Shown here piece after piece: positions 35,700 to 39,907 of a stretch of DNA of 64,000 bases; within the stretch, counting starts at the first letter, position 1; every line of letters begins with the position of its first letter. The notes under the pieces were generated by a model that worked only from the letters and a program-made list of their open reading frames with translations, made no database searches and had not been told where the DNA came from. The stretch is taken from contig NZ_QDKG01000002.1 of the NCBI RefSeq assembly GCF_003076635.1, positions 124,001 to 188,000 of the forward strand, read 5' to 3'. The DNA comes from Sphingobacterium corticibacter. GTDB lineage: Bacteria; Bacteroidota; Bacteroidia; Sphingobacteriales; Sphingobacteriaceae. A program made the translations under genes and the position numbers.

Positions 35700-36974
35700 T
35701 TAGTTATTCAAAATTTTATTATAATCATTTGCACCAATTCTTACAAACTGATTAACAAACAAATTGATTTCTTCGTTATATTCTTCAATATTTCTCTCCT
35801 TTATAGCATTCAAATTATCGATTAAGTCTTGACAATCTGAAAAGGAATCTCTTGGCATCCCGAAGGGGATATCTTTTTCATTCAAGGAAAATCTAAATGC
35901 TACCAAATTATTAAGATAATATTCATAGTAGATCGTAGAGTTGTAAACTACCGTAAAATCTGGTTGATATCTTATTATCGTATCTGCAACATTCAAATTT
36001 ACATCTGCACACTCTAAATCTAGTTCGTCAATTAAGGATCTATATCTACTTATATCGCTATTGGGATGCAATTTGAGAATGGGACTGTATCCCGTATCAC
36101 GCATTTCCGCTACTATGTTAATAAGCAACTTGTTTTCCTCTGTGTACAAATCTCTTGCTAAGCAAACAATAAACCTAGTACCTTCGGGTATTTTGATATG
36201 AATCTGTTTAATGTGAGCATACTTAGGATTACCTGCTACGATACATTTCTTATTGTTATACCCTGCCTCATCAAAAACTCTCTTAGTAAAGTCTCCCCAG
36301 CCAAGAAGATAGTCGGCCTGAAAGTTTTCAAGATTAACAAAGTCCATAGGTAATGGTTTACTATAGAGGTTCTCACTTAGAAGAACACCATGTTGTAAAC
36401 CATACGTAGGGATTTTACATGCTTGGAAAAATTGGCAGAAAAGACTTTCCAGAAGCAAGGAGCAGTTAAACCCAACAAAAGACTTAATACTGACTTGGTC
36501 TTTGTGCTTATCAAGCTCATCTAATACGTTTTTATAAAAAGTCAAGCAAGCAAAATAGTAAACTCGACTTTTTATATCCGGGCAACAAAATTTCTTTGAA
36601 AAAGCTTCTTTAAAAGAAGATATTATGTTCTTCAGACTATATCTGAATTTATGTTTAAACCTCGTAGGAAGTATATGTGTGTTATCTACTGTTGAAATGA
36701 TATCCTTTATGAAATCAAAGTAATCATTTCTAGTTGTTTGATAGAAAAAGACAACTTGATCTTTCCGGAGATCCTCTACCATACTTTGAAAATCATACGT
36801 GACACATATCTTAAGCAGCTGACGAACGATGGTATATGATGACTTGCTAATTGGCGAATAGCTATTGAAAAGGAAAAAATTAGCCATCAGCGGTTTCATA
36901 TCATAACCATTGTGCTTGGACTCGAAAGTGCATTTTAGTTTTTTATAATAATCATAAGCGCTTTTGTCCATCAT
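35700..36974 (-). CDS. GT-B-like capsule transferase, candidate ulosonic acid transferase
   Basis: A 424-residue protein. The C-terminal half has KIPTYGLQHGVLLSENLYSK near residue 190, YLLGWGDFTKRVFDEAG, SPILKLHPNSDISRYRSL and VVYNSTIYYEYY. These HG and HP blocks occur in CDP-glycerol glycerophosphotransferase-like and polysialyltransferase-like GT-B enzymes. It directly follows the NeuB-fusion gene (no spacer; ATG touches the stop). I infer that it uses the CMP-activated product of the neighbouring genes, but the family has not been firmly placed. Confidence 0.6.
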   Translation of the reverse strand: MMDKSAYDYYKKLKCTFESKHNGYDMKPLMANFFLFNSYSPISKSSYTIVRQLLKICVTYDFQSMVEDLRKDQVVFFYQTTRNDYFDFIKDIISTVDNTHILPTRFKHKFRYSLKNIISSFKEAFSKKFCCPDIKSRVYYFACLTFYKNVLDELDKHKDQVSIKSFVGFNCSLLLESLFCQFFQACKIPTYGLQHGVLLSENLYSKPLPMDFVNLENFQADYLLGWGDFTKRVFDEAGYNNKKCIVAGNPKYAHIKQIHIKIPEGTRFIVCLARDLYTEENKLLINIVAEMRDTGYSPILKLHPNSDISRYRSLIDELDLECADVNLNVADTIIRYQPDFTVVYNSTIYYEYYLNNLVAFRFSLNEKDIPFGMPRDSFSDCQDLIDNLNAIKERNIEEYNEEINLFVNQFVRIGANDYNKILNN

Positions 36975-38546
36975 TTAATTTACATTATCATTGGCTTTAT
37001 ACTTGTGATGCTCAAAGCTATGTACTACCTTTTCCTTGTTTCCGCACATAATTTCTGCTTTACGTATGTCGGCCACGAAATTTTTGAACTGATCATTGTA
37101 AAGATCAAGTGCTACTGAATCAAAATGAACCCAATCCAGATCTCCAAGTTTTACATGCTTCTCTACCATGCGTGCCCCAGCTGCCACCGCCATCATACAA
37201 CCGATGCTACCTAGGTCGTGAGATGAATATCCAGGGACAATATTAGCATGCTTTTCGCGGAGTTGTTCGTAGTGTCTTACAACAGATATTTGACAACCTT
37301 CTGGCGGAGTTGGATAAGACGACGTACATTGTAGCAAAAATAGCTTCCTATCATTTACCAGATTATCTAGAACAAAGTCCTCATAAGACTGTTCGGTAAA
37401 ACCAGTGCTTACAACAAGTTCACCTTTGAAGTGCTGTGCTACCTTTTTCAAATAATTTCTATGATTTGAAATCGTAGAAGGTAATTTGACCATAGGACAA
37501 TCAAGCTTCTCCATGTGTAGATACGAATTCCAATCCAGAACAGAAGCAAACCACGGAATATTTCTTTTACGACACTCTACATCCAGGAGTTCAAACATAT
37601 CATCAGTTAACTCGACGCCAAATCTGTAATCCGCTAAGGTCTCTCCAAACGGAGAAGAATATGGCGAAGCGAGCTCTTCTTCTGTATAAAAGGTATTTAC
37701 GTCCCTCTTTTGAACTTTGATCATATCCGCACCGGCCTCCACAGCCAATTCAATCATCTTCAGTAAGCGGTTTCGATCTCCAATATGATTATTGGTAAAC
37801 TCAGCAACGACAATAACGTGATTGCTACTATTCAACTTTTCTAGCAGTTTCCCATATATCACTGAGTTTGTTGGCAAATCCTTTGATAACAGATTATGTT
37901 CTAAAGAAGCATTAAATTGATCTATTGTGAATTTACTGTACTTCTTGTTACCAACATGGGAAAACCTAAGGTCTGGGTTTTTAAATTCCAAATCCTTTCT
38001 AAGCGTGATAAAGATCGATTCTTGGGTTTTTAGATGCGCATTACGATACTCAAGTCCTAATACATCACCCTTATTAACAGAATCTATAAAGAAATCAAAC
38101 CCCAAAAATACTGTTTCCAATAAGTTATCCTTTACTTTTTGAAAAAGCATTGACAACTTAATAGCGGATAGTAATGTAAAATCTAAAATGTAAAAGTCGG
38201 GTGTATAAAAATAAGAATAAACTCTTTCTAACCCCTCTTGATCAAGTGAAACGTACTCTGCAGGAATGTGTTTTCCTGATGGTAATTCTAGACTCTTAGG
38301 AGCCAAGTAATATCTTGAACTAAATCCACCTTCTACAAAAGTCTGTACAAGTTGAGGTTTGTAAAATACAGTGATATCTGCTGCAAAGGGCAGGTCAACA
38401 TCGTTCAACGCAATTACAAAGTAATCCTTCTCTAATTCGACCAGATTTATTTGCTCTAGAGACGTTCCTTTACCTACAATCGCTACCTTATTTTTGTTCG
38501 ATTCTGAAAATATATGTTTGATCTGGTCTAAGGAGTTCTCCATCAT
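36975..38546 (-). CDS. NeuB-like synthase fused to an N-terminal GT42/DUF115-like domain; SAF domain absent
   Basis: A 523-residue fusion. Residues 244-510 form a NeuB-type TIM barrel that joins PEP to an aldose: VAEFTNNHIGD near 247-257, AGADMIKVQKR, VKLPST, GYSSHDLGS and MVEKHVKLGD. The usual C-terminal SAF (antifreeze-like) domain of about 60 residues is missing; the chain ends about 50 residues after the barrel motif. Residues 20-235 resemble GT42 sialyltransferases or DUF115: VGKGTSL at 24-30, N48, a late FLGFDFF at 147-153 and H197 in FSHVGN. Such a fusion is unusual. It overlaps the upstream IMPase gene by 59 nt; a second ATG at 38543 is equivalent. Confidence 0.72.
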   Translation of the reverse strand: MMENSLDQIKHIFSESNKNKVAIVGKGTSLEQINLVELEKDYFVIALNDVDLPFAADITVFYKPQLVQTFVEGGFSSRYYLAPKSLELPSGKHIPAEYVSLDQEGLERVYSYFYTPDFYILDFTLLSAIKLSMLFQKVKDNLLETVFLGFDFFIDSVNKGDVLGLEYRNAHLKTQESIFITLRKDLEFKNPDLRFSHVGNKKYSKFTIDQFNASLEHNLLSKDLPTNSVIYGKLLEKLNSSNHVIVVAEFTNNHIGDRNRLLKMIELAVEAGADMIKVQKRDVNTFYTEEELASPYSSPFGETLADYRFGVELTDDMFELLDVECRKRNIPWFASVLDWNSYLHMEKLDCPMVKLPSTISNHRNYLKKVAQHFKGELVVSTGFTEQSYEDFVLDNLVNDRKLFLLQCTSSYPTPPEGCQISVVRHYEQLREKHANIVPGYSSHDLGSIGCMMAVAAGARMVEKHVKLGDLDWVHFDSVALDLYNDQFKNFVADIRKAEIMCGNKEKVVHSFEHHKYKANDNVN

Positions 38547-39171
38547 ACTTTTTGTTATTAACTGTTACTTTTAATTTATGCTCTAATGCTAGATTGAGAC
38601 CGGGCAAAATATCCCAAACTTTTGCCCCTTTTGGATTTTCAAACACACAAAATGATCCGGTTAAAACATTGTACATATTATAGACGCAACATCCAATGAT
38701 ACGGTACTCAAATCCATCATCTAATCTAAGTAGTTCCTCCTTTGTTAAGCTGGAAGATATTCCTACTATCCGAGAGCTGTGCTTTTGAAAAGTGTCTCCG
38801 TTTTTCATATACAAATCAAGTTCTGGCAAAGCTAGCATCGATTCCACGTGTTTACCGCTCTCATAGACACAAACAGCTACCCCCCATTCTTTAAGTCCCG
38901 AAATGAAGTTTTCAGTTCCATCTATAGGGTCTAAAACGATCACCTTATCGGCATTAATTGCTTTTAGATTTTCTTCAGGAGACTCCTCTGACACCAATGC
39001 GTAATCAGGATAATTTTGCCTAATCATTGACTTAACCAGTGATTCCATCAGCAAATCTCCCTCAGAAACATAGCTCCCATCCGATTTTAGCTTTTTTGTG
39101 CTCCTAAGTTTTAGAATATCCTTTAAATTCTCTCTTATGATTCCCTTTACTTGTGTACAAATATTTGACAT
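38488..39171 (-). CDS. Inositol-monophosphatase-family phosphatase
   Basis: A 227-residue IMPase/CysQ-type enzyme: VSEESPEENL near residue 65, VIVLDPIDGTENFISG near residue 79 (metal-binding DPIDGT) and KVWDILPGLNLALEH near the C-terminus (WD motif). Family members remove phosphate from small sugar or nucleotide phosphates. Lying between a CMP-sugar synthetase and a NeuB-like synthase, it is a candidate for dephosphorylating the ulosonic-acid phosphate intermediate, a step done by HAD phosphatases in known pathways. That role is inference. Confidence 0.82.
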   Translation of the reverse strand: MSNICTQVKGIIRENLKDILKLRSTKKLKSDGSYVSEGDLLMESLVKSMIRQNYPDYALVSEESPEENLKAINADKVIVLDPIDGTENFISGLKEWGVAVCVYESGKHVESMLALPELDLYMKNGDTFQKHSSRIVGISSSLTKEELLRLDDGFEYRIIGCCVYNMYNVLTGSFCVFENPKGAKVWDILPGLNLALEHKLKVTVNNKKYDGELLRPDQTYIFRIEQK

Positions 39172-39175
39172 GATC

Positions 39176-39880
39176 CTAAAATAGATATTTTTTTACGTCC
39201 TCTAATCCTGATTCAACTAAACACTTCACTATATTGAAATCTGATTCATCATCAATATCTAATCCACAAATCTTATCAGTGACTAACCCTAGTACATTTC
39301 TACCTAAGAAATCATCTCCAAGATTCTCTTTATTAAATCGAAATATGTCTGTACTGTAAACTTTGTAACGGCTCCCAACATCCTGTCTCCTTATCATCGA
39401 CTTATTTTGATCATCAAACGTAGGAATTAATTTACCATCTTCTAATCTGTACAATCTAGATTCTGTTTCACAGATTGTACGAACAGAAGAATATTCTGGG
39501 TGTTGTATCAAAGTTTGAATCCCCTGCTGTATCAGTTCTAAATCCCTAAATACAAAGGTTGGTCTGAGCCACACTATGATATCAGGAACTTCGATCTGAT
39601 ACTGTATAAATTTCTCGTACAAATCTTTGAGTACATCTTGCTCCATGGCAGTATCCCTAGCAGCAAAGTCACTCCTAAGAAATGGCACCTCGGCGCCGTG
39701 AATTTCTGCTATATCGCGATATACTTCCGAATCGGTAGAGCATATTACCCTATCACAACCTAATGCTTGTGCAAATCGAATCGAGTAAGCAATTAGCGGA
39801 CTTCCATTTATCTGCTGTACATTTTTATTTTTAAAACCCTTTGAACCTGATCTTGCAGGAACTATTGCGTAGACTTTCAT
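39176..39880 (-). CDS. CMP-sugar synthetase (NeuA/KdsB-like cytidylyltransferase)
   Basis: A 234-residue cytidylyltransferase. KVYAIVPARSGSKGFKNKNV binds CTP, ICSTDSEVYRDIAEIHGAEV and RPTFVFRD follow, and GLDIDDESDFNI is the C-terminal metal-site block of acylneuraminate cytidylyltransferases. The ATG at 39880 starts directly before the first strand. It would couple CMP to the acid made by the NeuB-like neighbour. The spacer to the IMPase gene is 4 nt. Confidence 0.85.
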   Translation of the reverse strand: MKVYAIVPARSGSKGFKNKNVQQINGSPLIAYSIRFAQALGCDRVICSTDSEVYRDIAEIHGAEVPFLRSDFAARDTAMEQDVLKDLYEKFIQYQIEVPDIIVWLRPTFVFRDLELIQQGIQTLIQHPEYSSVRTICETESRLYRLEDGKLIPTFDDQNKSMIRRQDVGSRYKVYSTDIFRFNKENLGDDFLGRNVLGLVTDKICGLDIDDESDFNIVKCLVESGLEDVKKYLF

Positions 39881-39907
39881 CCTTTGTATATTATATAATT
39901 CTACCAA

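Follow-up and report, generated by a model that had tools for sequence, protein, structure and literature searches.

A SAF-less NeuB barrel fused to a GT42/DUF115-like domain in a conserved three-gene cassette of Bacteroidota and Enterobacteriaceae

Within the 64-kb stretch of Sphingobacterium DNA analysed here (the window), one open reading frame encodes a NeuB barrel that ends the chain, with no SAF domain behind it, and that is preceded by about 240 residues which resemble, in their predicted fold, transferases of the GT42 and DUF115 type. The fused architecture is real and conserved: ten distinct proteins have it, each beside a phosphatase gene and with a cytidylyltransferase gene in the same cluster. 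It is assembled from known parts, the partner domain being the new element. From this arrangement we infer the substrates, the product and a transferase activity, and propose, with somewhat better than even confidence, that the three-gene cassette makes an ulosonic acid and installs it in a surface polysaccharide, the N-terminal domain acting as the transferase.

Architecture and distribution of the fused protein

The features of the locus are as follows.
36975..38546, minus strand: fused open reading frame, 523 residues, GT42/DUF115-like N-terminal domain followed by a SAF-less NeuB barrel
37827..38546, minus strand: N-terminal domain, residues 1-240, with GKGTS (25-29), ND (48-49), GFDF (149-152), QE (175-176) and H197
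36978..37826, minus strand: NeuB barrel, residues 241-523, with the Pfam NeuB match at 264-506 and no SAF
36999..37013, minus strand: C-terminal EHHKY, residues 512-516, invariant in all ten fused proteins, also found in the phage synthase of contig L047
38488..39171, minus strand: inositol-monophosphatase-like phosphatase (PF00459), 227 residues, 71.3 against 27 bits, overlapping the fused frame by 59 bases
39176..39907, minus strand: cytidylyltransferase (PF02348), 243 residues, best NCBIfam relative PseF, under cut-off
35700..36974, minus strand: downstream neighbour, 424 residues, no credible Pfam family, a candidate glycosyltransferase from its position alone

Pfam matches the fused frame to NeuB (PF03102, E 1.4e-43, 149.5 bits against a cut-off of 22.1, over the whole model from 1 to 241) and to nothing else at E-values up to 1; SAF (PF08666) is absent, and the same domain is recovered in the unfused NeuB locus L010, which served as positive control (E 1.9e-10). 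Only 17 residues follow the NeuB match, and in all ten fused proteins the chain runs just a few residues past the invariant EHHKY behind the barrel, which leaves no room for SAF. An earlier note on this DNA had described a NeuB-like synthase without SAF whose barrel ends the chain, and this description is borne out. The nearest NCBIfam models are NeuB/NnaB and PseI, with scores far under their cut-offs: 127.6 against 399.65 bits for N-acetylneuraminate synthase (TIGR03569) and 110.3 against 340.25 bits for pseudaminate synthase (TIGR03586).

The absence of SAF, which the earlier note had taken to be unusual, proved commonplace among the closest relatives. In 25 of the 26 next-best matches (L006-L031, all unfused and all of the window's NeuB family) the 281-286 residues from barrel motif to frame end leave no room for the domain, and only L010 is long enough, Pfam confirming SAF there; weaker matches with frames of ~340 residues lie outside these 26 and may well have SAF. 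The open frames of 23 of the 26 loci hold 196-243 residues ahead of the barrel motif, which in L006, the one tested, form a HAD hydrolase, while L020 and L025 are short SAF-less barrels. Judged by frame length and motif position, SAF-less barrels with an N-terminal partner are ordinary near the fused protein, and what is new is the identity of the partner.

A search for the same architecture in other genomes yielded nine further fused proteins, ten distinct ones with that of the window; in an alignment the nine are 41-69% identical to the window's. The holders are Sphingobacterium, Flavobacterium, Mucilaginibacter, two more Bacteroidota (G735 and G400), E. coli, on chromosome and plasmid, and an Enterobacter plasmid. 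The whole protein finds a match in 154 of 400 genomes of the order, and among the matches listed three besides the window's own cover the full length (56-69% identity). The N-terminal domain, searched against 395 genomes of the phylum, added the two further fused proteins of G735 and G400, a barrel-only search of 390 genomes at E 1e-35 returned the same fused proteins only, and a scan of named genomes gave four loci, in Sphingobacterium corticibacterium, S. wenxiniae, Mucilaginibacter glaciei and a Flavobacterium. Among five weak matches of the N-terminal domain in the phylum genomes four are also hits of PF01973 (DUF115), and G591 is DUF115-like by eye. The match L035 (E 9e-4) was considered as a fused relative and rejected, being by eye a channel protein.

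Three of 72,556 plasmid records carry the fusion, namely an E. coli plasmid, a chromosome-sized E. coli record labelled as a plasmid and an Enterobacter roggenkampii plasmid. The cassette is present in 11 of 5,426 complete E. coli genomes, all chromosomal, a count that covers close DNA relatives of the chromosomal L037 cassette only and leaves the plasmid variant outside. In one chromosomal carrier, E. coli AHB2 (L078:3081-31727), the annotation places the cassette within an ABC-transporter capsule locus with rfbBDAC; the plasmid cassettes L036 and L038 also lie in ABC-transporter capsule loci, with insertion sequences nearby. In the records examined the E. coli and Enterobacter fused proteins bear the database name 'N-acetylneuraminate synthase family protein', and we found no described NeuB-GT42/DUF115 fusion in the titles and abstract openings of the openly licensed PMC literature.

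Residues and predicted fold of the N-terminal domain

The N-terminal domain is the less conserved part: across the nine homologues its identity to the window protein is 25-58%, that of the barrel 53-81%. Invariant positions of the domain in all ten proteins are GKG (25-27), N48, D49, Y80, A128, K130, GFDF (149-152), E166, QE (175-176), H197, G199 and S204; S29 is kept in nine, and so is the pattern GKGxS, L033 having GKGPT. Four of these landmarks, GKG, N48, GFDF and H197, had been picked out in the earlier note from the window protein by itself; they stand at the positions claimed, and their invariance across ten such diverged proteins makes them more than chance.

Comparison with CstII shows where the domain departs from GT42. 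N48 aligns with CstII N31 and D151 with D154, while the position of N9 is Lys in all ten proteins (GNG becoming GKG) and, by eye, that of N51 is K, R, S, A or H and that of Y156 is F, Y, H, D or T. The CstII segment compared ends at residue 174, short of H188, the residue to set against H197; neither Y162 nor H188 has an aligned counterpart in this comparison. N9, N51, Y156, Y162 and H188 are what we take to be the catalytic residues of GT42. The first motif of eight DUF115 comparators likewise reads NGPSL where the fused proteins have GKG. With the GT42 signature residues changed, we do not claim membership of GT42 or DUF115, and another activity is possible; on the aligned residues, the pocket looks kept but altered.

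Profile searches gave a similar picture. No Pfam family passes its cut-off over the N-terminal domain; five of the ten fused proteins have a very weak MptE-like match (DUF115, PF01973, best E 0.045), and the domain of the window reaches 12.2 bits against the 34.6 required. The CST-I family of GT42 (PF06002) has no match in the window protein, in the other fused proteins or in 148 phylum genomes; as it missed the controls too, the genome scan is uninformative. When the ten N-terminal domains were compared by hhalign with eight Bacteroidota DUF115 proteins, the probability was 92% over a stretch of 40 columns at the first motif, falling to 32% with three phage DUF115 proteins and to 0.3% with the phosphatase alignment used as control. 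The DUF115 profile itself matches CstI (E 2.3e-4) and CstII (E 0.0045) by sequence, and weak sequence matches of the N-terminal domain in the PDB are to Fl3F/FjoF (E 0.018).

An AlphaFold (AF2) model of the N-terminal domain, built from five input sequences, has a mean pLDDT of 66.2 and a pTM of 0.67 and is the best of five (pLDDT 53, 41, 35 and 33 for the others); the single-sequence model of the whole protein (pLDDT 33) was left unused. Plain Foldseek against the PDB gave nothing under 1e-3, the matches being at E 0.025 or worse and mostly of Rossmann type, and in a viral library it gave two matches under 1e-3, both unnamed phage proteins, with an MptE-like protein at rank 8. VIA-align of Foldseek's first 1000 chains placed Maf first (5mu5, Z 9.0 over 172 residues), followed by M. 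jannaschii HPPK (8sd5, Z 8.3), thiamine pyrophosphokinase and CstI (both 7.8), SteA (7.7), and GT29 and CstII (both 7.5). Just two Z values exceed 8, and by the tool's own caveat values below this may mean a common arrangement only. The structural argument, as far as a predicted model can carry it, is that a single fold group occupies the highest ranks: the first 25 rows consist of Maf, archaeal HPPK, thiamine pyrophosphokinases, CstI/CstII, GT29 and one SteA, with Z at 6.4 in row 25 and 5.1 in row 26. The model suggests a likeness to the GT42/GT29/DUF115/pyrophosphokinase fold group. Of the earlier description of the domain as GT42/DUF115-like, the likeness in fold has support, with Maf at the top and the hhalign match behind it, and membership of either family has none.

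The cassette and its phage relatives

A phosphatase gene lies directly upstream of the fusion in all ten loci, identified with Pfam in the window and L037, by alignment in six others and by eye in L084 and L086, with annotation in addition for L036 and L038. Its EE, DPIDGT and WD motifs, presumably the active-site and metal-site motifs of the inositol monophosphatase superfamily, are invariant in the seven aligned loci, and both the Pfam cut-off and these motifs place the window's gene (38488-39171) in that superfamily. A cytidylyltransferase above the Pfam cut-off is present in the cluster of every fused locus. The order cytidylyltransferase-phosphatase-fusion is unbroken in eight of the ten; the exceptions are E. 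coli L037, with an O-acetyltransferase in between, and L034/L082, with the cytidylyltransferase downstream. The next gene downstream encodes a GT29-family protein in two of the ten loci. The window's 424-residue neighbour has a 427-residue counterpart, again without a credible Pfam family, at L084:6872-8152, and one polysaccharide cluster with a fused gene also holds a separate MptE-like/DUF115 protein (L083:5952-6752).

Neither Epimerase_2 nor DegT aminotransferase genes occur in the 64-kb window; the genome's only Epimerase_2 gene adjoins its strongest DegT gene at a distance of about 265 kb from the cassette. Neither neuC nor an aminotransferase is listed in the annotated E. coli locus, and L041 has an aminotransferase-like gene, identified by eye, two genes before the cassette. 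Going by gene content, amino-sugar routes look absent.

The same cassette occurs in a viral contig with the N-terminal domain missing. In L047 (1678-3902) a phosphatase, a 286-residue synthase and a cytidylyltransferase lie together; the synthase has neither SAF nor the N-terminal domain and is 53% identical to the window's barrel. The contig is 58 kb long, with under 2 kb of sequence ahead of the phosphatase; no N-terminal domain was found in it, nor by a search of it for GKG-type DNA motifs, nor in any of the other viral contigs searched. The neighbours of this cassette are by eye helicase, RecA-like and cytosine methyltransferase proteins. In our midpoint-rooted tree, whose branches are long, the L047 synthase is placed provisionally within the fused clade, grouped with six Bacteroidota proteins (support 99/99).

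Eight other viral contigs (L087-L094) hold related barrels, five of which were included in the tree and form a sister group. Pfam finds NeuB and no SAF in seven of the eight, and the eighth, L090, is too short for SAF. A cytidylyltransferase is encoded in the flanks analysed of all eight, and none has an inositol-monophosphatase-like phosphatase. Profiles built from bacterial proteins detect DUF115 in three of these contigs (30.0-33.9 bits in Pfam, just under the cut-off of 34.6) and GT29 in two, Pfam adding GT29 in two more, so that a separate DUF115 or GT29 gene lies near the synthase in seven of eight; L091 shows neither. No such neighbours occur at the 26 other NeuB loci, a weak control as flanks there were 1.5 kb against up to 5 kb in the phage contigs. 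The pattern of genes separate in phages and fused in bacteria, in the manner of a Rosetta stone, is the strongest hint of function and supports a link between synthase and transferase. All eight contigs also carry an RraA-like aldolase-family gene upstream of the SAF-less NeuB, in addition to the cytidylyltransferase; an example of such a pair is L044:4372-5001 and L044:4998-5870, where the RraA-like protein is over the Pfam cut-off.

Putative function, alternatives and known systems

In the pathway we propose, the NeuB barrel would condense PEP with an aldose phosphate drawn from central metabolism, most likely Man-6-P to give Kdn-9-P, the inositol-monophosphatase-like enzyme would strip the phosphate from the ulosonate, and the cytidylyltransferase would form the CMP-sugar. 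The N-terminal domain would then move the sugar from CMP onto the growing glycan and would form a new family within the CMP-sialyltransferase-like fold group of GT42, GT29 and DUF115. Man-6-P is preferred because the window lacks Epimerase_2 and DegT genes, which together with the adjacent phosphatase points to a putative Kdn-9-P synthase; the aminotransferase-like gene of L041 and the phosphatase-free phage relatives speak against Man-6-P as a general rule. The earlier note had suggested that one polypeptide might make and transfer an ulosonic acid. Of the readings considered this has the best support, as in seven of eight contigs with phage relatives of the synthase a DUF115 or GT29 gene stands separately nearby; the family membership attached to it does not hold. 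We regard the transferase role as the likelier one for the N-terminal domain. Against it stand the altered GT42 hallmarks, the separate GT29 adjoining two fused genes, the L047 cassette that does without the domain, the absence of DUF115 and GT29 in L091, the presence of pyrophosphokinases in the fold group, a model that is the best of five with most Z values under 8, and the fact that synthase and transferase act at non-consecutive steps of the pathway.

Several of these points would fit an active enzyme of another kind within the same fold group, for example a phosphotransferase acting on the phosphorylated aldose, with the transferase encoded separately, as by the GT29 gene found at two fused loci. 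HPPK and the thiamine pyrophosphokinases rank as high as CstI/II, the invariant Lys of GKG corresponds to an Asn in CstII and in the eight DUF115 comparators, and the HAD phosphatase-NeuB fusion L006 shows a neighbouring pathway step fused to the barrel. We nevertheless think this improbable, since in the phage relatives the synthase is accompanied by DUF115/GT29 proteins, a dedicated kinase is unnecessary for Man-6-P and no ATP or metal motif is recognisable by eye in the domain. A bolder form, which we also consider unlikely, is that the domain represents a new catalytic family whose invariant GKG marks a chemistry new to the fold, for instance on a phosphorylated aldose or ulosonate, coupled to its own synthase. 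The domain could instead be catalytically dead, a scaffold, donor-binding or regulatory part that, for example, tethers the synthase to a polysaccharide assembly complex, and its faster divergence than the barrel, together with its absence from the same-clade synthase of L047, would agree with this; it seems doubtful, since twenty positions invariant in ten diverged proteins, N48, D49, D151, E166, E176 and H197 among them, look like an active site that has been kept.

Far less probable are two explanations centred on the barrel. Replacement of SAF by the N-terminal domain, which would then complete the active site of the partner synthase subunit, had been raised as an alternative in the earlier note, and only the coincidence of a missing SAF with an added domain speaks for it. 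SAF-less NeuB proteins are common among the next-best matches, those of L047, the eight related phage contigs, L020 and L025 have no such domain, and Kdn-type substrates have no N-acetyl group for the SAF arginine to meet; with a phage synthase of the same clade possessing neither SAF nor the N-terminal domain, we reject this reading. An ordinary Neu5Ac, Leg or Pse synthase carrying a decayed extra domain, working on an unphosphorylated route beside an unrelated phosphatase, is similarly very unlikely: the nearest NCBIfam models are indeed NeuB/NnaB and PseI, but both scores are far under cut-off, the phosphatase adjoins the fusion at all ten loci and the window is free of Epimerase_2 and DegT genes.

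The phosphatase of the known Kdn-9-P systems of B. thetaiotaomicron and Prymnesium parvum is of the HAD type, and to our knowledge these systems have no transferase-like domain fused; the one in the present cassette is inositol-monophosphatase-like. In bifunctional CMP-Neu5Ac synthetase/transferase fusions an ulosonate enzyme is joined to a glycosyltransferase, whereas in the present protein the enzyme joined is the synthase, which acts earlier. Sphingobacteriaceae also have HAD phosphatase-NeuB fusions (L006, and others judged by length alone), two-domain proteins that likewise end in a SAF-less NeuB barrel, but their N-terminal domain is a HAD hydrolase and their barrel, about 30% identical, belongs to a distant clade. 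A natural route through Kdn-9-P synthase, phosphatase and CMP-Kdn is described in PMC6200933; in the B. thetaiotaomicron BT1714 system and the Prymnesium parvum enzymes the same three steps as proposed here fall to an enzyme of the sialic-acid-synthase type, a phosphatase and a synthetase for the CMP-ulosonate. According to PMC11339370, the PF01973 domain of Maf resembles CstII, and Maf proteins take nonulosonic acids in CMP-activated form. The N-terminal domain appears to share the fold and the first motif region of these Maf/DUF115 transferases, and differs from them in falling under the Pfam cut-off, in having GKG against NGPSL and in being fused to a synthase; with GT42 CstI/CstII and GT29 it appears to share the fold, and it has the equivalents of N31 and D154, while the CstI/CstII equivalents of N9, N51 and Y156 are not kept. 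The B. subtilis sps genes, as presented in PMC7439481, were considered for comparison and have no bearing.

If the proposed function is true, one enzyme of Bacteroidota and Enterobacteriaceae, encoded in polysaccharide clusters that also occur on plasmids, would both make and attach an ulosonic acid, in company with an uncommon phosphatase. An unassigned capsule sugar would become predictable from the genes, glycoengineers would have a compact cassette at hand, and the protein would show how the Maf/GT42 transferase fold became joined to sugar synthesis. Hexapeptide or CatB-type acetyltransferases are encoded near the cassette in G400 (L082:6932-7750, a weak Pfam match under cut-off) and, by annotation, in E. 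coli (L078:14677-15513), which suggests that the ulosonic acid is O-acetylated there.
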